From positions 1 through 11,925 of the forward strand of contig CAIMDR010000529.1 in NCBI GenBank assembly GCA_903839795.1: 11,925 bases of DNA, in the 5' to 3' direction. The notes under the pieces are model-generated. The model was not told the DNA's origin. It worked only from the letters and a program-made list of their open reading frames with translations, and ran no database searches. The DNA comes from an uncultured Methylococcaceae bacterium (lineage in GTDB: Bacteria > Pseudomonadota > Gammaproteobacteria > Methylococcales > Methylomonadaceae). Below are positions 1,169-11,925 of the stretch, one piece after another. The translations under genes were made by a program, and so were the position numbers. Every line of letters begins with the position of its first letter. Within the stretch, counting starts at the first letter, position 1.

Positions 1169-2149
1169 ATGGATCGATTCGACAGAATTTACCGGTTACA
1201 TGGGCTCTTAATCAACCGGCGCACACCGATTCCGTTAACGGATATCATGGATAAACTGCAATGTTCAAAATCCACAGTAACCCGCTGCATTGAAGAATTA
1301 AGGAATTATCTTAATGCCCCCTTGGAGTATGACAGGCAACGGCACGGCTACTTTTACAACCAACAACACGCAGATAAGCCCTACGAATTGCCCGGATTAT
1401 GGTTTAGTGCCGAAGAACTTAACGGCCTGCTTATTTGTCATCAAATTCTGCAAAACATCAGCCCCGGCATCCTTAGCCAGCAGATAACCCAGCTACAACA
1501 AAGAATCGACGATATCTTTAAAATACGCCATCAGGCATCCGCCAATATTTCACAAAAAATAAAACTTCTCTCCACCGGACGACGCTTAAAAGACGACGCC
1601 CAATTTAAAAAAACTGCCTCCGCCTTATTTAACGGCAAACAAATCAACATCCACTATAACGGCAGAGGCGAAAACGCCACCCAAACTGACCGAACCATCT
1701 CACCACAACAACTGATCTACTACCGGGATAACTGGTATATCGCCGCCTTTTGCCATCATCGTAATGAGTTACGGGTATTTGCCATCGACAACATCAGCTC
1801 GTCAAAAATACTGGATAAACAAATCGCTAAAACCATTGACCCCACGCAAGTTGAGCAATTTCTCACCTCATCTTATGGCATCTTTAGCGGCACTGCCAAA
1901 CATATCGCCGTACTGGAATTCTCAAAATTTAGAGCCCAATGGGTCGCTGACGAAAGCTGGCATCCCAACCAACAAGGCCAATGGCTGGAGAATGGCAACT
2001 ACCAACTTGGCATCCCCTTTAACGACAGCCGCGAATTGATCATGGACATACTCAAACACGGAGCCGAAGTGGAAGTTAAAGCGCCTGAATTTTTACGCGA
2101 GGCAGTCATCCAGCAAATAGCGGCCATGCAAAAAAAGTATAAAAAATAA
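1169..2149 (+). CDS. WYL-domain transcriptional regulator next to the Cas operon
   Basis: This 326-residue protein begins with a DeoR/HTH_11-type winged helix-turn-helix (about residues 1-65, recognition segment KLQCSKSTVTRCIEELR). A linker follows, then a WYL domain (about 140-225) with the signature written WYI at 189-191 and RVFAIDNI at 202-209. A WCX-type C-terminal domain spans about 243-320. WYL domains are ligand- or nucleic-acid-sensing and are often found next to CRISPR-Cas genes, where some act as repressors (established for the family). Regulation of cas3 or Cascade here is inference. The start is preceded by GGAAAG at a short distance. A hairpin and 69 bases separate it from cas3. 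It uses C-ending codons (AAC, ATC, GGC) much more than the cas genes, which prefer T-ending ones, so it may have a different history from the rest of the locus. Confidence 0.85.
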   Translation: MDRFDRIYRLHGLLINRRTPIPLTDIMDKLQCSKSTVTRCIEELRNYLNAPLEYDRQRHGYFYNQQHADKPYELPGLWFSAEELNGLLICHQILQNISPGILSQQITQLQQRIDDIFKIRHQASANISQKIKLLSTGRRLKDDAQFKKTASALFNGKQINIHYNGRGENATQTDRTISPQQLIYYRDNWYIAAFCHHRNELRVFAIDNISSSKILDKQIAKTIDPTQVEQFLTSSYGIFSGTAKHIAVLEFSKFRAQWVADESWHPNQQGQWLENGNYQLGIPFNDSRELIMDILKHGAEVEVKAPEFLREAVIQQIAAMQKKYKK

Positions 2150-2175: not shown

Positions 2176-2218
2176 CAGTGTGGATAATGGGAATTACGTT
2201 AAGAGTTGGGGCAGAAAC

Positions 2219-4825
2219 ATGACGGAAAAGTTATATTACAAGTATTGGGGCAAGGCCAGTTCAGATAATGACAGCGGCGCAAGTTACCATTTGTTGCCTT
2301 ACCATTGTTTGGATGTGGCTGCGGTGGCTGATCAATGGTGGTTGCATAGTTCAAGTTTACGGCGACAATTTACCCAAGCTATGCAGGTTGAAACGGAAGG
2401 TCAAGCATATTCATGGGTATTGTTTTTTGTAGCGTTACATGATTTGGGAAAATTGGATATTCGTTTTCAGTGGAAAGCAAAAGAAACGGCTATTGAATTG
2501 CAACCTGATCTACTTGAAAATATCAGGCAAGTAAATACTGGTTATTATCACGGCGATGCTGGGTACGCTTGGTTCTTATACGAATCAAAATCTTATGGAT
2601 TTAATTCTTCAATTGCAGCTCAAGCAAGCGAATGGATGATACAGGTTGCAGGGCATCACGGTGTTATTCCAGTCAATAGGCAAGATAAACAACAAGTTTC
2701 TGGCGTAAGTCCTTTATTGATAGCAAGAGACTGGCAAGCACGGATTGATTGGATAAGCGATTTGAAACAATTGTTTTCAGTCGATTTAAATGCTATTCCC
2801 GAAAATATTCCGCAGCTAATAGCAGGTTTTTGCAGTATCTGTGATTGGATTGGTTCAAGTGTTGAGTATTTTAACTACGAAACGAAATCTGATATCACCC
2901 TAAAAGAATATTTTGATTCCCGCACTGACAATGCAAAGCATGCTTTAAAAGGCTTCGGCATTCTTTCTCAGCTTACAGCCAATAATACATTAGAAACACT
3001 CTTTCCTCTGTATGCCACTGATGGCTCATTGTACAAGCCGCGTGGCTTACAAACGTTAACGTCGAAGTTGTCCTTGGAACAAAATTTAACTTTGATTGAA
3101 GCGCCGACGGGTTCGGGTAAAACCGAAACTGCATTGGTTTATGCAGCAAACCTGTTACATCAAGGGTTTGCTGACAGTATTATTTTTGCCTTGCCGACAC
3201 AAGCCACTGCAAATGCCATGTTAGACCGCTTGGAAGCAATGGCTGGTAATTTATTTGTTGAAGGTGCGAATGTGGTATTAGCGCACGGCAAAAGTAGCTT
3301 TAGGTTAGAAAAAATCCTGGATATTCATAAAGAAACGGCACAAGGTCAGGAGGAAGCTACCCAACAAGCTATGCGCTGGCTAACTGCAAGTAAAAAACGC
3401 GCTTTTTTAGGGCAAATTGGAGTATGCACGATTGACCAGGTTTTATTGTCTGTTTTGCCTGTGAAGCATAAATTTGTCCGTAGTTTTGGCATTCAAAAAA
3501 GTGTGTTGATTGTTGACGAAGTTCATGCGTATGACAGTTATATGTATGGCTTACTGGAAGCGGTTTTGAAGCGACAATATGAAGCGGGCGGAAGTACGTT
3601 GTTATTATCTGCTACCTTGCCTCAACAACAGCGTGAAGCTTTAGCGCGAAGTTGGGGCGATGCAAAAATCGAGATAACGAAAACCTATCCGCTGATTACT
3701 CAAGTTTATGCCGATAAAACCAGTCAGTCTTTTCAAATTTTAGATGTTAGCCAATTACCCGAACCAAGAGAAGTGCATTTAGAGGCATGGGTATTGGCTG
3801 ATTTGCAATTTACTGATGACAGCTTGCAGGAAATCATTACTGTCGCCAAACAAGGCGTGAAAGTCGCGGTGATTTGTAATTTAGTTGCTGATGCTCAAGA
3901 CTTAGCCATGCGATTAAAAGAACGTGCTGGCATAGATGGTATAGAAGTCGATTTATTTCATTCCCGCTTTCGTTTTATAGATCGTCAGCAAAAAGAAGAA
4001 ACAGTTAAGGCCTTATACGGTAAAGACAACGCCAAACGCGCTGTGGGCGGACGTATCTTGGTGGCAACTCAGGTTGTTGAGCAAAGTCTGGATTTAGATT
4101 TTGATTGGATGATAACGCAACTTTGCCCTGTTGATTTGTTGTTTCAGCGCATGGGGCGATTGCACCGTCATGCGCGTGATAAATCTGAACGTCCAATTAA
4201 TTTTGCAGAGCCGCGTTGTGTCGTTATCGTGCCAGAACAGGAGGGAAAATATGGGAATAGCCAGTACGTCTATAAAAATACTCGTGTTTTATGGCGTACT
4301 GAACAGTTCGTATCTAAAAGTGTGTCTGTTATTTTTCCAGAAGCTTATCGTGATTGGATAGAGCAAGTTTATCAAGATGAGGCTTGGCAAGATGAAGCAC
4401 CAACAATGACTGCAACCTATGAGAAATATAAAGACGAGGTGCAGTTTGTTGCAAAAATAACTGCCAATATGGTTACTGAGCTGCAAACAAAACCTTTATC
4501 CGATGAAGATGATAGAGCCAGCACCTTAACTCGCGATGGCGAAATGAGCTTAACAGTTTTACCAGTAGTTGAGAAAAGTGGAAAAACATATACCTTGGAA
4601 GGTGAGTGGATTGATGGAGAAAGTAAGAGGTACTGGGAGCAAGTGAGCTTAAATAGTGTTTGTGTACCCGATACTTGGAAGCATTTGTTTGTAAATGCTT
4701 CCAAAAAGGACGGAGTTATTTACCTGGTGATGCAAAAAACCGAGGAAGATGCTTGGCAAGTAGAGCTTGAAAAAGATCATTTGCTGTATTCTGTTCAACA
4801 AGGATTGGAACGGAAGAAAAAATAA
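2219..4825 (+). CDS. cas3: Cas3 helicase-nuclease, type I-E
   Basis: Cas3 is recruited by Cascade after R-loop formation, nicks the displaced strand with its HD nuclease, and unwinds and degrades DNA with its SF2 helicase. From the ATG at 2219 the protein has 868 residues. The HD domain shows H29, H74-D75 (ALHDLGKLD), H111 and H146-H147. Helicase motifs follow: Walker A APTGSGKT (295-302), DEVH (433-436), SAT (464-466) and QRMGRLHR (643-650). The C-terminal domain retains TRDGEMSL (771-778). All key residues are present, so it should be active. I chose 2219 because the result starts in register with E. coli Cas3 (YxxYWGK near residue 8). A GTG at 2180 would add 13 residues and has the better Shine-Dalgarno sequence, so the start is not settled. 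A strong terminator follows at once, separating cas3 from Cascade. Confidence 0.97.
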   Translation: MTEKLYYKYWGKASSDNDSGASYHLLPYHCLDVAAVADQWWLHSSSLRRQFTQAMQVETEGQAYSWVLFFVALHDLGKLDIRFQWKAKETAIELQPDLLENIRQVNTGYYHGDAGYAWFLYESKSYGFNSSIAAQASEWMIQVAGHHGVIPVNRQDKQQVSGVSPLLIARDWQARIDWISDLKQLFSVDLNAIPENIPQLIAGFCSICDWIGSSVEYFNYETKSDITLKEYFDSRTDNAKHALKGFGILSQLTANNTLETLFPLYATDGSLYKPRGLQTLTSKLSLEQNLTLIEAPTGSGKTETALVYAANLLHQGFADSIIFALPTQATANAMLDRLEAMAGNLFVEGANVVLAHGKSSFRLEKILDIHKETAQGQEEATQQAMRWLTASKKRAFLGQIGVCTIDQVLLSVLPVKHKFVRSFGIQKSVLIVDEVHAYDSYMYGLLEAVLKRQYEAGGSTLLLSATLPQQQREALARSWGDAKIEITKTYPLITQVYADKTSQSFQILDVSQLPEPREVHLEAWVLADLQFTDDSLQEIITVAKQGVKVAVICNLVADAQDLAMRLKERAGIDGIEVDLFHSRFRFIDRQQKEETVKALYGKDNAKRAVGGRILVATQVVEQSLDLDFDWMITQLCPVDLLFQRMGRLHRHARDKSERPINFAEPRCVVIVPEQEGKYGNSQYVYKNTRVLWRTEQFVSKSVSVIFPEAYRDWIEQVYQDEAWQDEAPTMTATYEKYKDEVQFVAKITANMVTELQTKPLSDEDDRASTLTRDGEMSLTVLPVVEKSGKTYTLEGEWIDGESKRYWEQVSLNSVCVPDTWKHLFVNASKKDGVIYLVMQKTEEDAWQVELEKDHLLYSVQQGLERKKK

Positions 4826-4826
4826 T

Positions 4827-4853
4827 AAAAAGGGCGATGTTATCGCCCTTTTT
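4827..4853. terminator. Bidirectional terminator shared by cas3 and the mini-CRISPR
   Basis: AAAAAGGGCGAT-GTT-ATCGCCCTTTTT is a perfect 12-bp stem with a 3-base loop. It gives a GC-rich stem and a T-run on either strand. It begins one base after the cas3 stop and ends exactly where the degenerate CRISPR repeat begins, so it can also end a leftward transcript of that array. Confidence 0.9.
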
Positions 4854-4942
4854 ATTTAAGCCCCACGGGTGTGGGGAATATTTTTCTGTTTAGCTACAAC
4901 ACTAGGTGTAGTAAGGTTCATCCCCACGAGTGTGGGGAGAAT
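4854..4942 (-). CRISPR. Two-repeat, one-spacer type I-E mini-array
   Basis: The two repeats lie at 4915-4942 and 4854-4881, with a period of exactly 61 bases, the type I-E unit length. On the minus strand the first repeat reads ATTCTCCCCACACTCGTGGG and then GATGAACC. This matches the I-E form: a 6-bp stem CCCCAC/GTGGGG, a 4-base loop and an ATGAACC handle. The second repeat keeps the stem (CCCCAC-ACCC-GTGGGG) but its 3' end has decayed to CTTAAAT, as expected for the last repeat of an array. The spacer is 33 bases (4882-4914) and contains an imperfect palindrome (4894-4911). Cas6e could still release one complete crRNA, because the 5' handle comes from the intact repeat and the 3' stem from the decayed one. 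No further repeat is seen 61 bases to either side. Confidence 0.85.
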
Positions 4943-4945
4943 TTA

Positions 4946-5023
4946 ATTTTACACGGTGTGACTAATTTTTGCATCTTGATAATTAGGTATAGTACTTGAT
5001 ATTTAAAGTGTGTCGTGTAAAAT
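4946..5023. promoter_or_regulatory. Divergent intergenic control region with 10-bp inverted repeat
   Basis: ATTTTACACG (4946-4955) and CGTGTAAAAT (5014-5023) are perfect inverted copies 58 bases apart. They enclose the only room for a leftward promoter of the mini-array and a rightward promoter of the DUF3800 gene. A rightward candidate is TTGATA (4976-4981) with TATTTA (5000-5005). Leftward candidates are weaker. The inverted repeat could be an operator pair or the ends of a small mobile remnant. Confidence 0.4.
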
Positions 5024-5049
5024 CAAGCCCAATAAAAAAATCGCTTGGT

Positions 5050-5055
5050 AGGAGA
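5050..5055 (+). promoter_or_regulatory. Ribosome binding site that sets the DUF3800 start
   Basis: AGGAGA lies seven bases before a TTG at 5063. The in-frame GTG at 5057 is one base away, too close, and the TTG at 5045 lies upstream of the site. It therefore favours initiation at 5063. Confidence 0.6.
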
Positions 5056-5062
5056 CGTGTGT

Positions 5063-5680
5063 TTGATTATTTATTTGGATGAATCTGGCGATTTGGGATT
5101 TGATTTTGAGAACAAATCGCCCTCGCATTATTTTGTAATTGCTGTTCTTGTTTGCAAAGATGCCGTAATGGATAAACAGCTACAGAAGGCCATCAGCCGG
5201 ACTATTAAAAATAAGCTTGGTGCTAAAGCAAATGAACTGAAAGGGACAAAAATCGAGTTGAAAATAAAAACTTATTTTTTAGCTCAATTGCACAAGTTGG
5301 CAGTAAACGATTTTGAAATTTACGCTGTTATAGTTGACAAGCGTAAGCTTCTAAAAACAGATACTCAAAATAAATCAGAGCTTTATAACCAAATAACCAG
5401 CATGTTGCTTCAACAGATAACAACACAGGATGTGAGCGCAGTGACATTGATTGTTGATAAAAGCAAAAACAAATATGGGATGAAAATTTTTGATGACTAC
5501 CTTAAACGGCAACTGAACTTGGAAATGCCTTTTTTCATTCATCATTACAGCTCTAGCGCAAGTAGAGGTTTACAAGCTGTTGACTTGTTTTGTTGGGGGA
5601 TTTACCGAAAGTACGAGCATCAAGATGCTGAATGGTATCAGGCTTATGAATCAATGATAAGCTACGAGAAAGAATATTAA
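5063..5680 (+). CDS. DUF3800 protein, RNase H-like fold, inside the Cas locus
   Basis: From the TTG at 5063 the protein has 205 residues and begins MIIYLDESGD, the usual DUF3800 start. An upstream TTG at 5045 would add six. Conserved acidic positions fit an RNase H-like metal site: D6-E7 in LDESGD, the ELKG motif at 58-61, D132 in LIVDKSKNK and D174 in LQAVDLF, the last in the SRGLQAVDLFCWGIYRK segment typical of the family. DUF3800 proteins are common in phages and defence islands and are predicted nucleases; the activity is not generally shown. The gene sits between the mini-CRISPR and cas8e, on the same strand as both neighbours, where standard I-E loci have nothing. An accessory nuclease, a regulator-processing enzyme or an unrelated passenger are all possible. 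The residues look intact, so it is probably a functional gene. Confidence 0.85.
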   Translation: MIIYLDESGDLGFDFENKSPSHYFVIAVLVCKDAVMDKQLQKAISRTIKNKLGAKANELKGTKIELKIKTYFLAQLHKLAVNDFEIYAVIVDKRKLLKTDTQNKSELYNQITSMLLQQITTQDVSAVTLIVDKSKNKYGMKIFDDYLKRQLNLEMPFFIHHYSSSASRGLQAVDLFCWGIYRKYEHQDAEWYQAYESMISYEKEY

Positions 5681-5686
5681 GCGACC

Positions 5687-5752
5687 CCTGTTATGCCGAA
5701 TTCCCAAAGCTTAGCCAACCTACGGAAGGGAACACCAAGGGCGCATAACAGG
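5687..5752. repeat. 66-bp element with 10-bp terminal inverted repeats
   Basis: CCTGTTATGC (5687-5696) and GCATAACAGG (5743-5752) are perfect inverted copies. The interior is not symmetric. It resembles a small MITE-like or dispersed element lying between the DUF3800 gene and cas8e. It does not fit an integron attC site, because the arm order is the reverse of that arrangement. Confidence 0.6.
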
Positions 5753-5808
5753 ACTTACTCGCTTGGTGGAAATATTACCACAGAGGCAAAAAATGTCCTA
5801 CAGCGATT

Positions 5809-5837
5809 TTGATTTAAAAAAGTAAAGACGGTATATG
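5809..5837 (+). promoter_or_regulatory. Candidate sigma-70 promoter of the Cascade operon
   Basis: TTGATT (5809-5814) and TATATG (5832-5837) are separated by 17 bases and lie 28 bases before the cas8e start. Each matches 4 of 6 consensus bases. With the 184-base gap and the inverted repeat upstream, it suggests that Cascade is transcribed on its own rather than only by read-through from the DUF3800 gene. Confidence 0.45.
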
Positions 5838-5864
5838 GCTTAACAATACTTAGGAAAAATCTAA

Positions 5865-7409
5865 ATGAATTTATTAACTGATAACTGGATACCCGTTGAA
5901 TTAAAAGATGATTTACAACGGATTTCTCTAAAAACACTACTGTGCGAAGAGCAGGATTTTAAAATAAAAACTTTTAGGGACGATATGGAGCTTGCAACTT
6001 TACAGTTGTTGGTCTGTATCATGCAGGTGGTATTTATACCCGATGATAAAAAGGCATTAGAAAATTGTCAGCATAGTCCACTATCAGAAACGGACTATCA
6101 AAAAGGCATAGAAAACTATCTGGATTGGTTTGATGTCTTGCATCCTGAAACGCCGTTTATGCAAACGGGTACTGTAAAACCGGAAAAAGGCAAAAAAAAC
6201 TGGGCCTCTCTGCAAAAATTATTTATGGGCTTGCCTGAAAAAAGCAGTTCTAGCCCTACATCCAGTGCGTTTTTTGATACCCCTGATGAAATTTCCGCAA
6301 TATCCATAGGCGATGCTGCTATTGCTTTATTTCAGCAAGCAACTAATGGTTTTAGTTTAGGCGGCGTAGGTTATTCTGTGGGTTTAAAAGGCTCAATGCC
6401 TCTAACGACATTAATTATTAGCGATAACTTAAGGAAAAGTCTATGGTGCAATGTGTTAAGCCGAGAGTTTCTAATACAAAAAGTACCGCACATTTTAAAT
6501 GCCCCTTTGCAAGAACCTACATGGGTTATTCCACCGCATAGCAAAATACCTGAAGAACACACGCATCATATTGGTTTAATGCGTGGTCTATTTTGGCAAC
6601 CTGCCAAAGTCAAATTAGAGTTGATTAATGGTGAAGTGACAGGGTTTTATAAGGAAGCAGGAACGTGTACCGTCAAAGGTTTTTGGTTACATCCTCACAC
6701 GCCCATTGATACAGAGCGCTTAAAAGCAAACGACCCTAAAGAAAAACCTTATCTTTCTGCACGCGGCGATCAACCTTTGTGGGGACAAATGTTGAGCTAT
6801 TTTTATACGAAGGAACAAATTAAAGTAGTCGATGCAAAAAAAGAAGGGTCAAGTTGTGCCTTGGTTGTACAGCAGTACGAACAAATATGGTTAACAAATG
6901 GTATTCAATTGGCTGTCGGCGGTTACATAAAAGGCGGTAGCGCTGAAAGTCTCGCAGGTAGGCGGCATGAAATTTATAGTCTTGCCGAAGGTTGGCAGAA
7001 TAACAGTCCTGAATTAAATGACTTGATTGATTTTGCTGTTTCATGCCAGCAACGCTTAAGCCTCGCGGTAGCTGATTTTGTCGATAAGGCGAACACTGCT
7101 TTTAAAGACCGTAATAATGACTCTCCAAAAAAATTTACCGGTAAAGAGCCGCATTTTAAGAAGCATCTTAAAGCTAATGCCAAACAAGTTTATTTCAATA
7201 ATTCTGAAACCATCATGCACAGCCTATTAAAAGAGTTTCAGTGGCATGATGATTTAAAACCACATCAGAAGAAATTCATAAGATTAGCTGAAAAAGTTTT
7301 TGAACAGCTAGTAAGTCCTTATGAACATGAAGATAAAATGTTAGAACCCGTGATTAAAAGCCGTCAGTTTTTACACAATATGCTCAATAAATTAACTCAA
7401 CCGTTGTAA
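5865..7409 (+). CDS. cas8e: Cas8e/Cse1, large Cascade subunit, type I-E
   Basis: Cas8e recognises the PAM, helps open the target duplex and recruits Cas3. The protein has 514 residues (E. coli CasA has 502) and opens with MNLLTDNWIPV, almost identical to E. coli. Other shared segments are FRDDMELATLQLLVCI (37-52), HPETPFMQT (93-101), the AIALF segment (153-157), GLMRGLFWQPA (237-247), VKGFWLHPHTP (270-280) and RRHEIYSLAEGW (366-377). The C-terminal part (about 380-514) is the four-helix bundle that contacts Cse2. The PAM-sensing loop region (about 125-145) is serine-rich. The CxxC pairs that bind zinc in E. coli CasA are absent: only one cysteine lies near the second site, at 268. ATG at 5865 has AGGA nine bases upstream. 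It is first of five tightly linked genes. Confidence 0.95.
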   Translation: MNLLTDNWIPVELKDDLQRISLKTLLCEEQDFKIKTFRDDMELATLQLLVCIMQVVFIPDDKKALENCQHSPLSETDYQKGIENYLDWFDVLHPETPFMQTGTVKPEKGKKNWASLQKLFMGLPEKSSSSPTSSAFFDTPDEISAISIGDAAIALFQQATNGFSLGGVGYSVGLKGSMPLTTLIISDNLRKSLWCNVLSREFLIQKVPHILNAPLQEPTWVIPPHSKIPEEHTHHIGLMRGLFWQPAKVKLELINGEVTGFYKEAGTCTVKGFWLHPHTPIDTERLKANDPKEKPYLSARGDQPLWGQMLSYFYTKEQIKVVDAKKEGSSCALVVQQYEQIWLTNGIQLAVGGYIKGGSAESLAGRRHEIYSLAEGWQNNSPELNDLIDFAVSCQQRLSLAVADFVDKANTAFKDRNNDSPKKFTGKEPHFKKHLKANAKQVYFNNSETIMHSLLKEFQWHDDLKPHQKKFIRLAEKVFEQLVSPYEHEDKMLEPVIKSRQFLHNMLNKLTQPL

Positions 7410-7419
7410 GGAGTCGAGA

Positions 7420-7968
7420 ATGACCCAGCTTAAAATTGAAAAAGCGGATGAACAGGCTTGTTTAAGTGCTCTGTTTACTGAATATGGCCTGTTAAGCAAC
7501 GGCGATAAAGCCAGTATCCGTAGAACGGTAGAGCCAGATGATTTACAGACGAACCCCGTTTTTTACCGCCTAATTCTACAAACTATGGATAGCTTTAATG
7601 AGCCAAAAAGCAAAGCAAAGGCGCGGGTATTTTTTGATAACCTGCCCAATATAGGGCGCGTGGTTTATTTCTTGCCATTTATTAAACATCAGGCCAATAG
7701 CAAAAGCTTAGGGGGGATACTCAAAGAAAAAAATATCAGTGAACGTCGCTTGTTTCTAGTGATGCGCTCTGAATATCCCGAAGATTTAAAACATCTACGC
7801 CGTTTGTGCCAGCAATTTGAGGAAAGTGTTGATGGCGTGAAGTCGGGAAACTTATTATTTTTTTGGGGAAAAGACAAAAATAGTAGCGAACGCAGTAAGC
7901 GCCAATTGATGAGGGACTTTTATTTATCGAAAAAGCCTGATGAAAGCACTGTTGCTGAAGAGACCTGA
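7420..7968 (+). CDS. cse2: Cse2/Cas11e, small Cascade subunit
   Basis: Two copies of this alpha-helical protein run along the Cascade belly and hold the displaced strand and the crRNA-target duplex. The protein has 182 residues against 160 in E. coli. Family segments are SIRRTVEPDDL (32-42), NPVFYRLI (45-52), ISERRLFLVMR (106-116), DLKHLRRL (122-129), the WG at 149-150 and MRDFYLS (164-170). The start has AAGGAG (7408-7413), overlapping the cas8e stop and six bases before the ATG. The last two residues (E-T) and the TGA stop use bases of the 33-bp palindrome that begins at 7961, so that insertion set the present C-terminus. The tail after residue 170 is unlike the conserved core and probably not needed for assembly. 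Confidence 0.93.
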   Translation: MTQLKIEKADEQACLSALFTEYGLLSNGDKASIRRTVEPDDLQTNPVFYRLILQTMDSFNEPKSKAKARVFFDNLPNIGRVVYFLPFIKHQANSKSLGGILKEKNISERRLFLVMRSEYPEDLKHLRRLCQQFEESVDGVKSGNLLFFWGKDKNSSERSKRQLMRDFYLSKKPDESTVAEET

Positions 7969-7993
7969 CAGGTTTTTAAAACCTGTCAGGTCT
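7961..7993. repeat. 33-bp perfect palindrome, copy 2, inside the Cascade operon
   Basis: It has the same arms as 48-80 (AGACCTGACAGG and its complement). It overlaps the last eight bases of cse2, provides its stop codon (7966-7968), and fills half of the 74-base gap before cas7e. As RNA it would form a long stable hairpin. No T-tract follows, so it is more likely to affect mRNA stability or processing than to end transcription. Confidence 0.9.
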
Positions 7994-8042
7994 AGGTGGC
8001 GCTTTAAAAATGATTTAATTTAATTTATCCAAGGAAAAACCG

Positions 8043-9206
8043 ATGACAACTAAAAATTTTGTAAACTTCCACATCTTAATATCACACAGCCCTTCTTGCT
8101 TAAACCGTGATGATATGGGCATGCAAAAAACCGCTATATTTGGCGGCACTCGGCGGGTGCGCATTTCCAGTCAGAGTTTAAAGAGAGCGATACGCACCTC
8201 GCCTTATTATGAAGCGCAGTTTGGTAAACCTTCCGAGCGCACCAAGCAACTGACTCTATTGCGTAATAAATACCGTGAGTTGCTAAAAGACAAGTTTCCA
8301 CAAGATATAATTGATACTGTTTTAATGGCAGTGGCGGGTGTCAAAGAAATTAACGATTTAGAAACAGAAGCTAAAGACGGCAAAAATAATGAAGCAGCGA
8401 AAACTAAAACAACGGGGACGGTATCCGGCGCAGTCGCCGCATGGTCAGTTTATGAAATAGAGAAATATTGTGACTTTTATCAGCAATTGAAAGAAGAGCA
8501 TACAGACGAGAAAGTCTTTCAAAAAACATGGGAAAAAGAAACTAAAAAAGACAGCTTTAAAAAATTCAATGCGGCTTTTCAAAACAGCGTTGATATTGCC
8601 TTATCAGGCAGAATGGCAACCTCCGGCATTATGACCTCGGTGGATGCGGCGTTAGCCGTTGCTCATGTCATTACCACACACACCGTTGATGGCGACCTGG
8701 ATTGGTTTACCGCTGTGGATGATTTAAACCAGGAAGCAGGCGAAACAGGTTCAGCGCATTTGGATACCCAAGAGTTCAGTGCCGGTGTTTTTTATCGATA
8801 TGCCAGTTTAAATCTCATCCAATTACAAGAAAATTTAGGCGAAGTCAGCCGTGAAAAAGCATTAGAAATTGCAGCCCACACCTTGCATTTACTAGCCACA
8901 GTCATTCCAGATGCCAAACGTAACAGCACGGCTGCGGATAATCCTGCGGATTTTGTTTGTGTCTCCTTAAGCGACCAACCCATTTCCTTAGCCAATGCTT
9001 TTGAAGAACCTGTTAAAAGTAAAAACGGTTTTCTTAAACCGTCAGTTAAACAATTTGTCGATTACAAAGAAAAAGTTTATCAAGGTTATGAACTGCGAGA
9101 TCAAGTAGCCTTTTTTAGTTTAGATAAACAAGAGGCTTTACAAGGCAAAGCTTGCAATACACTTAGTAGCCTTGAAAACTGGATTAAACAAGATGGCAAG
9201 GAATAA
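8043..9206 (+). CDS. cas7e: Cas7e (CasC), Cascade backbone subunit
   Basis: Six copies wrap the crRNA spacer in Cascade. The protein has 387 residues (E. coli 363). The N-terminal RRM-like core is nearly identical to E. coli: ILISHSPSCLNRDDM (11-25), then AIFGGTRRVRISSQSLKRA (31-49). SGRMATSGIMT (188-198) and AHVITTHTVDGDLDWFTAVD (207-226) form the palm and thumb region. The extra length is mostly a lysine- and glutamate-rich insertion near 107-125. AAGGAA (8031-8036) lies six bases before the ATG. The gap to cse2 carries the palindromic repeat, directly upstream of the subunit needed in the greatest number of copies. Nothing suggests loss of function. Confidence 0.96.
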   Translation: MTTKNFVNFHILISHSPSCLNRDDMGMQKTAIFGGTRRVRISSQSLKRAIRTSPYYEAQFGKPSERTKQLTLLRNKYRELLKDKFPQDIIDTVLMAVAGVKEINDLETEAKDGKNNEAAKTKTTGTVSGAVAAWSVYEIEKYCDFYQQLKEEHTDEKVFQKTWEKETKKDSFKKFNAAFQNSVDIALSGRMATSGIMTSVDAALAVAHVITTHTVDGDLDWFTAVDDLNQEAGETGSAHLDTQEFSAGVFYRYASLNLIQLQENLGEVSREKALEIAAHTLHLLATVIPDAKRNSTAADNPADFVCVSLSDQPISLANAFEEPVKSKNGFLKPSVKQFVDYKEKVYQGYELRDQVAFFSLDKQEALQGKACNTLSSLENWIKQDGKE

Positions 9207-9208
9207 TC

Positions 9209-9883
9209 ATGCCTAGCTACCTGATTCTAAAATTGCAGGGGGCGATGCAAGCTTATGGTGGGCATACCTATGAAGATTATCGCCCCAGTCTAATCTTTCC
9301 TACTCGCAGTGCGGTAGTGGGTTTATTGGGTGCATGTTTAGGCTTGGAGCGTGAAAAGCCGCAAGCCTTGGAAGCTCTAAACGATAGTTTTGAACTTGGA
9401 CTCAGTGTGCTTGCTCACTCGCGTTTAGTTGAGCAACGCCATTTTGATAAAAAACTTAAACCTCGAACTGTTACCTTGCACAAAATTACAGACTATCACA
9501 CTGTTTTAGATGCTCGCAGGGCAGACGGTGGAAAACGCGATGATGCTATTGTGTCACGGCGTGAATACCTGTGTGATGCAGAATTTACTCTTGCACTTTC
9601 ATTTAAAGATAAAGCAGGTTTGGATGCCGTTGTGAAAGCAGTTAAAAAACCACACTACACACCTTACTTAGGGAGGCGCTCATGCCCTTTGCAACGCCCC
9701 TTATTTGAAGCCATTGTTGATGCAGACACAGCAGAACACGCTTTACGGCACATTCAACCAGAAGGTACGTTGTATAGCGAGACTGAATTATCACAAAGTT
9801 ATCCCATGCCGGTACGTGATTTACCCCTGTTTGGTAATAGACGCCGTTTTGTCACACGCACCGTTCATGTTGTAGGAGGCTGA
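9209..9883 (+). CDS. cas5e: Cas5e (CasD), crRNA 5'-handle-binding Cascade subunit
   Basis: Cas5e caps the backbone and grips the 5' handle of the crRNA. The protein has 224 residues, the same length as in E. coli. Family segments are SYLILKLQGAMQAYG (3-17), FPTRSAVVGLLGACLG (30-45), TDYHTVLDAR (94-103), REYLCDAEFTLAL (118-130) and TPYLGRRSCPL (151-161). The ATG is two bases after the cas7e stop, and its AAGGAA site (9198-9203) is inside the end of cas7e, which points to coupled translation. Confidence 0.95.
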   Translation: MPSYLILKLQGAMQAYGGHTYEDYRPSLIFPTRSAVVGLLGACLGLEREKPQALEALNDSFELGLSVLAHSRLVEQRHFDKKLKPRTVTLHKITDYHTVLDARRADGGKRDDAIVSRREYLCDAEFTLALSFKDKAGLDAVVKAVKKPHYTPYLGRRSCPLQRPLFEAIVDADTAEHALRHIQPEGTLYSETELSQSYPMPVRDLPLFGNRRRFVTRTVHVVGG

Positions 9884-9884
9884 T

Positions 9885-10610
9885 ATGTACCTAAGTCGCG
9901 TTACTGTGTCACCTGAGCACTTGGAAGAATTCGCAAAAATTTTTCAATATAACTATTACCAACTGCATCAACTACTATGGAAACTTTTTCAGGATAAGCC
10001 CGATAAAACGCGTGACTTTTTATTTCGTCAAGATAGCTATAAAGGCTTGCCTGTATTTTATATACTTTCTCAAAGTGAGCCGAATCAAAACCTTAGTGCT
10101 TTGAAAGTAGAATCCAAACCATTTAACCCACAACTCCAAGCAGGCGACAAGCTGCGTTTTACCTTACGTGCAAATCCGGTAGAACAGATTACAAAAGAAC
10201 GAACCTTGGAAGAACAAGAATTGCTGCGGATTGATCGGAAAAAAAAGGGTTTAAGAGATAAGGAAATTATTCCTATGAAAAGAGTTCGGCATGATGTCGT
10301 CATGCAGCTTAAAAAAACACTGACTGATGCTGAAAGGTCGGATTATTCCCAGTCGGAATTGGAGCAACAGGCAGGTGCGGCATGGTTAGAAAAAAAAGCT
10401 CAAAAAAATGGCTTTAAAGTGTTGTCAGTTACTGCTGAAGGGTATCAACAACATCATTTTAAAAAACGTGGCATCAAAATCAGTACGCTTGATTTTAATG
10501 GTGTATTAGAAGTCACTGAGCCGGAGTTATTTATTCAAGAAGCACTTTATAAAGGCATCGGCCCTGCCAAAGCCTTCGGTTGTGGTTTGCTTTCTTTAGC
10601 CAGAATCTAA
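9885..10610 (+). CDS. cas6e: Cas6e (CasE), crRNA-processing endoribonuclease
   Basis: Cas6e cleaves the repeat at the base of its stem and stays bound to the 3' hairpin of the crRNA. The protein has 241 residues against 199 in E. coli. MYLSRV opens the first RRM-like fold, and the catalytic histidine is H28 in YYQLHQLLW (24-32), matching E. coli H20. FTLRANPV (92-99) and the C-terminal glycine-rich loop GIGPAKAFGCGLLSL (224-238) are conserved. The added length is a charged stretch at about 103-165. AGGAGG (9874-9879) lies five bases before the ATG, and the start is one base after the cas5e stop. In most I-E loci cas1 would follow directly; here noncoding repeat DNA does. Confidence 0.95.
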   Translation: MYLSRVTVSPEHLEEFAKIFQYNYYQLHQLLWKLFQDKPDKTRDFLFRQDSYKGLPVFYILSQSEPNQNLSALKVESKPFNPQLQAGDKLRFTLRANPVEQITKERTLEEQELLRIDRKKKGLRDKEIIPMKRVRHDVVMQLKKTLTDAERSDYSQSELEQQAGAAWLEKKAQKNGFKVLSVTAEGYQQHHFKKRGIKISTLDFNGVLEVTEPELFIQEALYKGIGPAKAFGCGLLSLARI

Positions 10611-10664
10611 TTGCAATTGAATGTCATGGGGTAAGTAAAATCTGTTGGCTAAGGCTTAAAGTAA

Positions 10665-10841
10665 CTCGCAATAAATACCACCCAATCGTTGCTTGACTCT
10701 GGGGACGCTACCGACTTAATGATTCCTGTAGGAGCTGGCCATGCCTGCGATATAACGAAGCCTTCGCAGGCATGGCCAGCTCCTACAAAGCTGTGTACGA
10801 AGCGTGTAGAGACTATAAAGTCGGGGCTTATTTATTGCGAG
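10665..10841. repeat. 177-bp imperfect inverted repeat enclosing a REP palindrome
   Basis: The outer ends CTCGCAATAAATA (10665-10677) and TATTTATTGCGAG (10829-10841) are perfect 13-bp inverted copies. Further inward, weaker pairing continues (for example ACCGACTTA against the complement of TAAAGTCGG). This suggests an old palindrome or MITE into which the central REP was inserted. It lies 54 bases after cas6e and may mark the end of the operon transcript, as no separate terminator is seen. Confidence 0.75.
10727..10787. repeat. REP-type palindrome, 24-bp perfect arms
   Basis: The arms at 10727-10750 and 10764-10787 are exact inverted copies, beginning TGTAGGAGCTGGCCATGCCT, with a 13-base loop. 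The sequence is very like the TGTAGGAGC...GCGA REP elements of Pseudomonas and other gammaproteobacteria. Such elements are spread by RAYT transposases; none is present here. Confidence 0.85.
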
Positions 10842-11256
10842 CTGCTTAATTATTACCCGCTATCTGTCATATTAATCCAGTGAGCCTACTGATTTAGGGT
10901 TGCCGATGATTAAATAGGAGTAGAATTTTTTATTATTAAAACATTATAATAAATAAAGTTAATGCTTCTCGAAAATAAACCTCTTCTTTAAAAAGAATCT
11001 ATTATATATATTCCATATTCCCTCAACAACATTTGTAGAGAAAGATACTCTCAATAGATTGGTTTTCAAAAATTTATGAAACATTAGAAAAAAATGGATT
11101 TATCAACTCATAAAATTACATTTGAAAGTATAATAGATTAATAAAATCCATCAAGTGATTGGATTTAATTTGTGTACCATTAGAAAATAGCAAATTAAAT
11201 GGTTGATCATTATATTTGCTTCTTGAATATAAATGAACTAGGCAAAAATATGAATT
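10842..11256. other. AT-rich stretch containing the bacterial-to-ciliate junction
   Basis: Base composition falls sharply in AT after about 10900, and no bacterial gene is seen. The junction cannot be placed to the base. On the plus strand, 10962-11273 has no TGA in one frame and could be coding if TAA and TAG are glutamine, but 104 codons is short enough to be chance in AT-rich DNA. That frame would run into the next one with a frameshift or a short intron near 11254-11273. Confidence 0.5.
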
Positions 11257-11877
11257 ATGAAATCTTAAATGATTGAAGAAAACTAGTTTTAAAAGATAGA
11301 CATCCGCGACACCCCATCTTGGAAGAGACAAATCAACTTGATACATGATCCAAAAAATACTTACTTATTCGACGAATACACCAAAGCTAATTTAGATAAA
11401 ATGTTAGATCAAGTATCTTTTTTCCCACAGATTGAGTTAGGAATTACCGTGAATGATTTCGTAATAGAAGAGAGGAGTTTAAGTCAGTTATTCGTGCCAG
11501 TGGCATCATTTGATGATGATCGCAAAAAAAACAGAAACGAAGAGATGGTCGCAATGATTGAAGGTATTGTCTATCCTTGGTTCGGTATCGGCTACAGAAT
11601 TGACTAGATATAATTCGCATTCGGTGATGATAGTCATCTGTTTATCGACCACTCAAGATTAGCAATTTTACATGCCTAAAAAATAGCTAACTTTTTTGTG
11701 GATGAGTGTCGACTGTCAGCAAATGAATTCGAGTTTATTGATCAAGAGCTTGAATAAGTTGATAAAATAAAGTTTGCTGATGTTCATGAAGTATAAATAC
11801 CTGCTATGGTTAATACTCCTTCCATGGATTGGAGGGAGGAAAGTATGTTATATCCAACTGAGCTTTATCTTTTCTGA
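11257..11877 (+). CDS. Gamma-glutamyl-hydrolase-like protein in ciliate genetic code (partial)
   Basis: Read with TAA and TAG as glutamine, this frame gives 206 residues and stops at TGA (11875-11877). Eight reassigned codons occur (11266, 11284, 11290, 11605, 11611, 11677, 11755, 11794) and no TGA in 206 codons. In the standard code only 11338-11604 is open. The C-terminal half follows eukaryotic gamma-glutamyl hydrolase (peptidase C26): IEGIVYPWFGIGY (101-113) matches the MEGYKYPVYGVQW region, and AQKIANFFVDECR (140-152) matches the AFYLAEFFVNEAR helix. The catalytic histidine of the WHPEK motif is an arginine here (R114 in YRID), so it is perhaps an inactive paralogue. The catalytic cysteine domain is missing, so the gene is 5'-truncated or interrupted. 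The start is uncertain. A decayed bacterial gene is the alternative, but the telomere beside it argues for a ciliate. Confidence 0.6.
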
Positions 11878-11901
11878 ATTATTATTATTTTTCAAATGGA
11901 A
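11878..11901 (+). other. Short 3' untranslated and subtelomeric segment
   Basis: Only 24 AT-rich bases separate the TGA stop from the telomeric repeats. Very short flanks are typical of gene-sized hypotrich chromosomes. Confidence 0.5.
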
Positions 11902-11921
11902 GGGGTTTTGGGGTTTTGGGG
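11902..11921 (+). repeat. Hypotrich ciliate telomere, (G4T4)2G4
   Basis: The 20 bases are exactly GGGGTTTT twice followed by GGGG, G-rich strand pointing to the window end, as expected at the right end of a chromosome. Oxytricha and Stylonychia macronuclear telomeres have a 20-bp duplex of this very sequence. The four bases after it (AGAT) do not continue the repeat. Confidence 0.85.
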
Positions 11922-11925
11922 AGAT

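Follow-up and report, generated by a model that had tools for sequence, protein, structure and literature searches.

The closest described relatives of the locus analyzed here are the crRNA-like guides of the CreR, CreTA, and CrePA systems (passages of PMC12737573), with CreR guides described in types I-B, I-E, and V-A (passages of PMC13131331). CreR is, like our locus, a crRNA-like gene with partial complementarity to a promoter and predicted autorepression of cas genes (passages of PMC13131331 and PMC12737573). In the haloarchaeal type I-B CreTA systems the CreA RNAs of Halobacterium hubeiense and Haloarcula hispanica are reported to have a seed of exactly bases 1-5 and 7-11; bases 6 and 12 are free and two degenerate repeats flank the spacer, as in our locus, whereas the type, the TTC PAM, and the tRNA-sequestering RNA toxin are not (passages of PMC8501985). 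A type I-F CreTA of the same layout as ours lies between cas3 and csy1 in Acinetobacter, with two degenerate repeats, a spacer that partly matches a nearby PAM-flanked site, and a divergent passenger before the first Cascade gene, the whole being absent from relatives whose cas operon is continuous; unlike ours it belongs to type I-F, has a CC PAM and no canonical seed rule, and its toxin is a small RNA with a 33-bp ORF, whereas the passengers described below are proteins of 35-211 residues (passages of PMC10097628). CrePA, finally, places a KilA-N protein toxin under a CreA guide and so shares with our locus the control of a protein gene (passages of PMC12737573).

The window, by which we mean the whole stretch of 11,925 nt that was analyzed, is contig C529 of a genome of 3.56 Mb in 748 contigs (83% complete). 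The closest named relatives of its cas3 are from Methylomonas, Methylobacter, and other Methylococcaceae, and the host is probably a methane-eating bacterium. The window carries a type I-E cas locus with these parts:

1169-2149, plus strand: WYL/WCX-domain transcriptional regulator upstream of cas3 (Pfam WYL, WCX, HTH_11), a possible further regulator
2180-4825, plus strand: cas3, type I-E helicase-nuclease (Pfam, NCBIfam)
5045-5680, plus strand: DUF3800 protein (Pfam PF12686, alignment, structure model)
5679-5764, minus strand: structured RNA DUF3800-V (Rfam RF02964), directly against the stop codon of DUF3800, opposite strand
5865-7409, plus strand: cse1 (casA) (Pfam, NCBIfam)
7420-7968, plus strand: cse2 (casB) (NCBIfam TIGR02548)
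8043-9206, plus strand: cas7 (casC) (Pfam, NCBIfam)
9209-9883, plus strand: cas5e (casD) (Pfam, NCBIfam)
9885-10610, plus strand: cas6e (casE), the predicted guide processor (Pfam, NCBIfam)

Cas1 (PF01867) was not found in this 83% complete assembly, nor was Cas2, for which PF09707 was the only family tried and gave a positive control in just 2 of 14 genomes. Behind cas6e there are no convincing cas1 or cas2 remnants, and the remaining ~1.3 kb of the window (10611-11925) holds a single frame of at least 80 residues, which has no Pfam match. Elsewhere in the genome the repeat core occurs only in a second two-repeat array on a prophage-like contig, the search having consisted of one exact repeat-core pattern and one loose DNA search, which arrays of different repeats would escape.

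The interval between cas3 and cse1 contains, on the minus strand, a pair of type I-E repeats, both degenerate, that enclose a spacer of 32 nt and end in a terminator, followed on the other side by a control region:

4942-4914, minus strand: repeat 1, degenerate, which would give the 5' handle ATGAACCT
4913-4882, minus strand: spacer, 32 nt, whose seed (bases 1-11) matches 4984-4994 of the minus strand and whose predicted internal hairpin takes in seed bases
4881-4853, minus strand: repeat 2, degenerate, with the last 8 nt decayed, which would give the 3' hairpin of the mature guide
4856-4824, minus strand: terminator of the guide transcript, a perfect 15-bp stem with a 3-nt loop and a T run
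4946-4951, minus strand: TAAAAT, 3 nt upstream of repeat 1, by reading a candidate -10 box for the guide promoter
4963-4994, minus strand: the guide's protospacer, within its own control region (19/32 identical, seed 10/10)
4995-4997, minus strand: AAG PAM of that protospacer
4996-5023, plus strand: divergent promoter-like site, TTGATA (4996-5001), 16 nt, and TAAAAT (5018-5023), with the -35 overlapping the PAM

Degenerate CRISPR repeats flanking a spacer near cas genes are the anatomy of a CreR or CreA gene. The earlier note on this DNA had described two leftward I-E repeats with a 61-base period and a terminator at the end, and this is what we find: the repeats are 29 nt long, their period is exactly 61 nt, and the stem-loop scores as a terminator on the minus strand. 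Its spacer (4882-4914) was rightly placed, although one base too long. The note had also taken the decay to be confined to the dispensable part of the last repeat. Measured against the intact repeat of the same genome (G000:C386), which has zero mismatches to GTGTTCCCCACACCCGTGGGGATGAACCG, repeat 1 carries 5 changes and repeat 2 carries 7 in their 29 positions. Of those in repeat 2, five do lie at positions 22-29, outside the predicted mature crRNA, but the other two (positions 1 and 3) lie inside it and repeat 1 is decayed as well. Specifically, G29 of repeat 1, the last base of the predicted 5' handle, has become T, a change that could weaken loading and that speaks against a regulatory guide. 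From 4945 to 4824 (122 nt) the predicted fold has four hairpins, formed by repeat 1, the spacer, repeat 2, and the terminator, and lies 7.3 sd below that of 200 shuffles. The predicted guide RNA would be read leftward, with a length of ~61 nt and a 5' start of ATGAACCU, and its spacer begins TACTACACCTAGTG. The control region has two near-symmetric -10-like boxes (inverted repeat 4943-4955 / 5014-5026), and its description as a divergent promoter region was a fair one.

The target of the guide lies on the same strand, starts 52 nt upstream of repeat 1, and reads AAG followed by TACTATACCTAATT. The spacer matches it at all ten seed positions (1-5 and 7-11), and the mismatches at positions 6 and 12 fall on bases that are unpaired in a type I crRNA. 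In the genome as assembled there is one exact copy of the AAG plus seed site, next to the guide itself, and no such match arose in 3000 dinucleotide shuffles of the window's 120-nt control region. A seed-limited, PAM-flanked match of the kind that the earlier note had proposed to look for, especially at cas promoters, is therefore present beside the guide. The complement of the AAG is the CTT of CTTGATA, and the PAM thus lies over the -35 of the rightward promoter-like site, which is a consensus match; since the guide's own candidate -10 stands just before repeat 1, the target sits between two divergent promoters. Such a PAM-flanked seed match to a nearby promoter is the second mark of CreR and CreA guides. 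The rightward site points to DUF3800 and then to cse1 on the same strand, and a simple perfect-stem script found no plus-strand terminator in 5030-5870. By these anatomical tests the guide fits a known kind, from which its function is predicted, and we consider it very probable that the feature is a CreR/CreA-type crRNA-like regulatory gene of the type I-E system that would repress the unit from DUF3800 to cas6e together with itself.

One alternative is that the feature is a remnant of an ordinary memory array, consisting of leftover repeats and an old phage spacer, with a promoter match that is accidental or an old self-spacer. The repeats are indeed degenerate, the array is minimal, and cas1 was not found in the genome. 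An ordinary type I-E memory array would have intact repeats and a spacer of foreign origin, and here the repeats carry the 5 and 7 changes given above while the spacer had no match in the viral contigs (positions 6, 12, 18, and 24 free, otherwise exact) or in plasmids. Its one match in phages was a chance-level stretch of 23 nt (E 0.9, query bases 10-32), and foreign origin was dropped as an explanation, with nothing else found in these three collections. The perfect phage or plasmid match that, according to the earlier note, would have spoken against a regulatory guide was thus not found. Further, a remnant would not account for the unique AAG-flanked 10/10 self-match, nor for the recurrence of the same relation, with conserved position and orientation, in all 20 of the guides described next, whose spacers are largely different, nor for the match profile given below, which drops to chance at positions 6 and 12 and stays above it at 13-17. 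We regard a memory-array remnant as extremely improbable.

The relatives were collected with a detector that used hairpins, handle, and spacing as its criteria and made no use of the target. Its input comprised 122 sequences (the window, 82 stretches from around relatives of cas3, 28 behind further cas3 genes, and 11 loci from DNA searches), and several of the 82 stretches were the same locus fetched twice. We kept 20 distinct hits behind cas3, the window included, and dropped same-locus duplicates, ordinary arrays, and chance hits inside genes; at six loci (the window, L037, L038, L040, L059, and L061) the target site had been read by eye before the detector was run. In all 20 guides the best seed match within 1000 nt upstream precedes repeat 1 by 39-70 nt and shares its strand. 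The seed score at the guide's own target, which lies in the cas3-cse1 interval, is 10/10 in 16 and 9/10 in four, and the PAM is AAG in 19 and AAA in one (L138). By comparison, 6000 shuffles of the 20 control regions gave a best AAG seed score of 9 in five and never 10. When spacers and regions were swapped, an AAG with a score of at least 9 was seen in 8 of 380 pairs, all of which belong to four reciprocal pairs with similar seeds (29 of 380 if the PAM requirement is dropped), and 383 ordinary array spacers set against the 20 regions gave AAG with 9 in 2 of 7660 comparisons and never 10. The loci are related, and the counts are not all independent events. The spacers differ widely among the 20 guides and the relation of each to its own upstream region is kept; as the sequences read, spacer and promoter have changed jointly across the relatives. 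The note had looked to conservation of the spacer in relatives as support for a regulatory role, and what is conserved is for the most part not the letters of the spacer but its relation to its own promoter. The regulatory reading that the note had favored over a memory array hence gains from the unique self-match, from its absence in the shuffles, and from its recurrence in relatives.

The match profile was computed for n = 20 guides, namely 18 of the above (without the near-duplicates L038 and L051) plus L136 and L074. Positions 1-5 and 7-11 match at frequencies of 0.95-1.0, but the sites were chosen by these positions and only the others are independent evidence: the frequency is 0.30 at position 6, 0.35 at position 12, 0.73 at positions 13-17, and 0.29 at positions 18-32, compared with 0.32 by composition. 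Pairing of this kind is what one would expect from a crRNA in Cascade. The overlap with a promoter also recurs. In a sigma-70 scan of the 20 loci the mean score peaks, at 7.95, where the -35 starts on the PAM complement, compared with 5.55 (sd 0.31, maximum 6.55) in 500 shuffles that keep the PAM, and the score at the PAM is at least 8 in 13 of the 20 loci. It is poor (4-7) in five (L038, L040, L091, L142, and L148); by reading, L038, L040, L091, and L148 seem to have a better promoter 11-14 nt beyond the PAM position, none was seen in L142, and in L086 and L146 a better -35 lies one base further on. The sequence itself shows the anatomy of the guide, its unique self-match, the overlap with the promoter, and the joint change of spacer and target.

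A further guide detector was blind to targets on the other strand (L136 and L140) and to three repeats (L074), and those loci were found otherwise. An AAG site on the opposite strand is present in L136, L140, and L176. L074, from Xenorhabdus kozodoii (12679-13154), has three repeats and two tandem AAG sites that score 10/10 and 9/10, and the same guide design is found in L061, from a Thiotrichaceae genome (12700-13074). Among 237 genomes of the family we count at least 22 guide loci, comprising 18 with the peptide described below, the window, G203, G115, and G233; this number is a minimum, as some 20 further cas3 matches (E > 1e-80) lie outside the count. This further detector reported no guide in L039, L046, L052, L068, L073, L096, L099 (where a masked stretch precludes a judgment of absence), L117-L119, L122, L128, L130-L132, and L137, and gave only weak non-AAG chance matches in L041 and L092.

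We now put forward a mechanism for this locus, in which guide processing, binding without cutting, repression, and co-transcription of DUF3800 with cse1 are the steps that we infer. Type I-E Cascade can bind without cutting where complementarity is short. Transcription of the guide would run leftward from the promoter just before repeat 1, Cas6e would cut at both degenerate repeats, and the one resulting guide would be taken up by Cascade. Cascade would then bind the AAG-flanked site between the divergent promoters without effective cutting by Cas3, because pairing is limited to the seed and a few further bases. The bound complex would cover the rightward -35 along with the stretch where the -35 of the guide promoter is presumed to lie, thereby repressing the DUF3800-cse1-cse2-cas7-cas5-cas6e unit as well as the guide itself. 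If Cascade were lost, blocked by an anti-CRISPR, or filled by other crRNAs, the unit would be derepressed.

The hairpins could in principle act without Cascade, solely as an operator in the DNA or an attenuator in the RNA of the cas3-cse1 interval. They are strong inverted repeats in an intergenic position. A crRNA in Cascade, however, would give such a relation of spacer and target, with a PAM and with bases 6 and 12 free, whereas this kind of variation would be surprising in an ordinary operator, and we consider a Cascade-independent element very improbable. In favor of the regulatory guide, repeat 1 retains its hairpin while its sequence drifts: 19 sequences show 21 two-sided compensatory cells, a number reached in none of 500 shuffles, although on one of the five measures (pairs changed on both sides) the real value was reached in 50 of 500 shuffles. 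Paired cells make up 95.6% of the repeat-1 stems, a figure biased by the detector's demand for at least five of six stem pairs. The regulatory guides have a further trait, in that their spacers fold. The mean percentile of the spacer fold among its own shuffles is 0.18 for the 20 guides versus 0.47 for 200 ordinary spacers (Mann-Whitney p 6e-6), with a percentile of 0.05 or less in 7 of 20 versus 14 of 200, and a mean of 5.1 of the first eight spacer bases are paired versus 2.7 in 383 ordinary spacers (p 2e-5, uncorrected for base composition). These hairpin p values are optimistic as the rows are related, and the effect exists only at the level of the group, the hairpin of the window spacer alone being nonsignificant (0.31 of its shuffles fold equally well). 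The tendency of the seed to fold into a hairpin in these guides is apparently a new trait; the passages searched in PMC8501985 and PMC10097628 make no mention of folded CreA spacers. Such a fold may make the guide a weak competitor for Cascade or may keep the repeats from mispairing.

Unlike in CreR, as far as review descriptions allow the comparison, a DUF3800-RNA pair stands between the guided promoter and cse1. The DUF3800 protein (PF12686, 60.6 bits with a cut-off of 21) probably starts, by reading, at TTG 5063 after AGGAG 5050-5054. Residues D12, E13, D138, and D180 are invariant in 42 aligned sequences, and the structure model and structural alignment predict an RNase HII-like fold that matches over most of the domain; the DUF3800 profile found no match among the sequences of solved structures. 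The DUF3800-V RNA is arranged tail to tail with a DUF3800 gene in all three relatives found within the taxonomic order (window 5679-5764, L037 8016-8105, and L151 2173-2269, each on the minus strand), and this tight protein-RNA pair might be a toxin with an RNA antitoxin. The literature passages searched state no function for the DUF3800-V RNA. DUF3800 proteins of RNase H fold have also been described near the effectors of V-A2 and VI-F CRISPR loci, in a family linked to putative noncoding RNAs (passages of PMC10910872 and PMC12669027); unlike there, the window's DUF3800 belongs to a type I-E locus, stands behind a guide-targeted promoter, and has its RNA on the opposite strand.

The guided slot of L037 holds a relative of the window's DUF3800 protein, that of L091 a ParE-family toxin (PF05016, 46 bits), and that of other loci a conserved small hydrophobic protein. 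A Pfam search of ten window proteins found no KilA-N domain, and unlike in CrePA the passengers are DUF3800, ParE, or the small hydrophobic protein. In 237 family genomes a profile of 14 rows for this peptide gave 20 matches at E ≤ 2e-4, most of them its own source loci and eight of them outside the profile (G016, G063, G106, G112, G127, G164, G168, and G196). Eighteen of the 20 adjoin a guide with an AAG seed target, and in the two that do not, G168 (at a contig edge) and G063, the peptide gene appears to be broken. Seven weaker matches (E > 1e-3), with no guide present, were judged spurious, and a search of 369 class-wide genomes found no peptide, which shows little since the set held no positive control. 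These kinds of passenger behind a guided promoter (DUF3800 with its structured RNA, ParE-family toxin, and small hydrophobic protein) are apparently new, none having been found as guide passengers in the literature searched, which did not extend to the primary CreR paper and the repeat-element survey.

The passengers raise the possibility, to which we give somewhat less than an even chance, that the locus works as an addiction module like CreTA or CrePA, in which the guide mainly silences a passenger that is toxic on Cascade failure, so that Cascade cannot be lost. This is compatible with a regulatory guide and differs from it in emphasis alone. The occupants of the slot, a ParE-family toxin in L091 and a DUF3800 protein of predicted RNase HII fold in the window with a relative in L037, would suit such a role, as would the association of the peptide with guides and its apparent breakage in the two exceptions; L039 and L130 retain only repeat relics and no peptide. 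Persistence of Cascade in a genome in which no Cas1, no PF09707 Cas2, and no other repeat-core array save the prophage-like one were found points the same way. However, the toxicity of the passengers is putative, and in L138 cse1 lies directly behind the guided promoter of a guide without evident passenger. In L068, outside the family, the peptide (47.6 bits, also a row of the profile) occurs with one repeat-like hairpin and no guide was found beside it. By reading, a Phd-like antitoxin gene is still present upstream of the guide in L091, so ParE need not depend on the guide, and as the passengers appear to share a promoter with cse1 they may simply be operon riders.

More speculatively, the cas3-cse1 interval would be an RNA-guided addiction slot for exchangeable toxin cassettes, with the window's cassette a new type of toxin, a DUF3800 nuclease of RNase HII fold with its own structured RNA, silenced by the Cascade guide that also silences Cascade. 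The seed hairpin would lead to poor loading, the circuit would in this way sense free Cascade, and immune crRNAs or anti-CRISPRs would readily prevail, setting free Cascade and the toxin alike. We think it unlikely that this picture as a whole is correct.

Regarding the regulatory guide itself, the relatives amount to a sizeable natural collection of sequences for the study of Cas autorepression by guides in type I-E. From the way these guides evolve one can read that bases 6 and 12 are free and how far complementarity extends, and the collection makes it testable whether partial complementarity is tuned for binding without cutting. DUF3800, together with its RNA, and the conserved small hydrophobic protein emerge from it as candidate toxins, and a possible role for the DUF3800-V RNA is indicated as well.

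Several minor observations were made along the way. Genes that by reading resemble toxin-antitoxin genes (HicA/HicB-, YafQ-, and Phd/RelE-like) occur in the cas3-cse1 or cas6e-cas1 intervals of these type I-E loci, at the L142 gap, L086, L132, L137, L038 8687-9282, L039 18071-18666, and L041 18873-19931, which suggests that the cas intervals of these loci are a hotspot for such genes. A short inverted repeat around cctgacaggttt..aaacctgtcagg is found at 51-80, near the left end of the window, and at 7962-7994, over the end of cse2, and looks like a dispersed repeat of this genome. The second array of the genome, L018 (G000:C386, 2220-2309, plus strand), has two intact I-E repeats and one spacer directly behind what by reading is an integrase-like gene, with a dusA-like gene next to that gene and phage-like genes beyond (likewise by reading), and looks like a prophage-borne mini-array; its spacer had no match in the viral contigs and, elsewhere in the genome, only seed-length matches with one mismatch. 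A run of the same repeats stands at the contig end of L153. In the viral contig L154 (IMGVR_UViG_3300006467_001040, 2540-2632, plus strand), whose genes by reading include replication- and terminase-like ones, the same repeat occurs twice around one spacer and forms a virus-borne mini-array.
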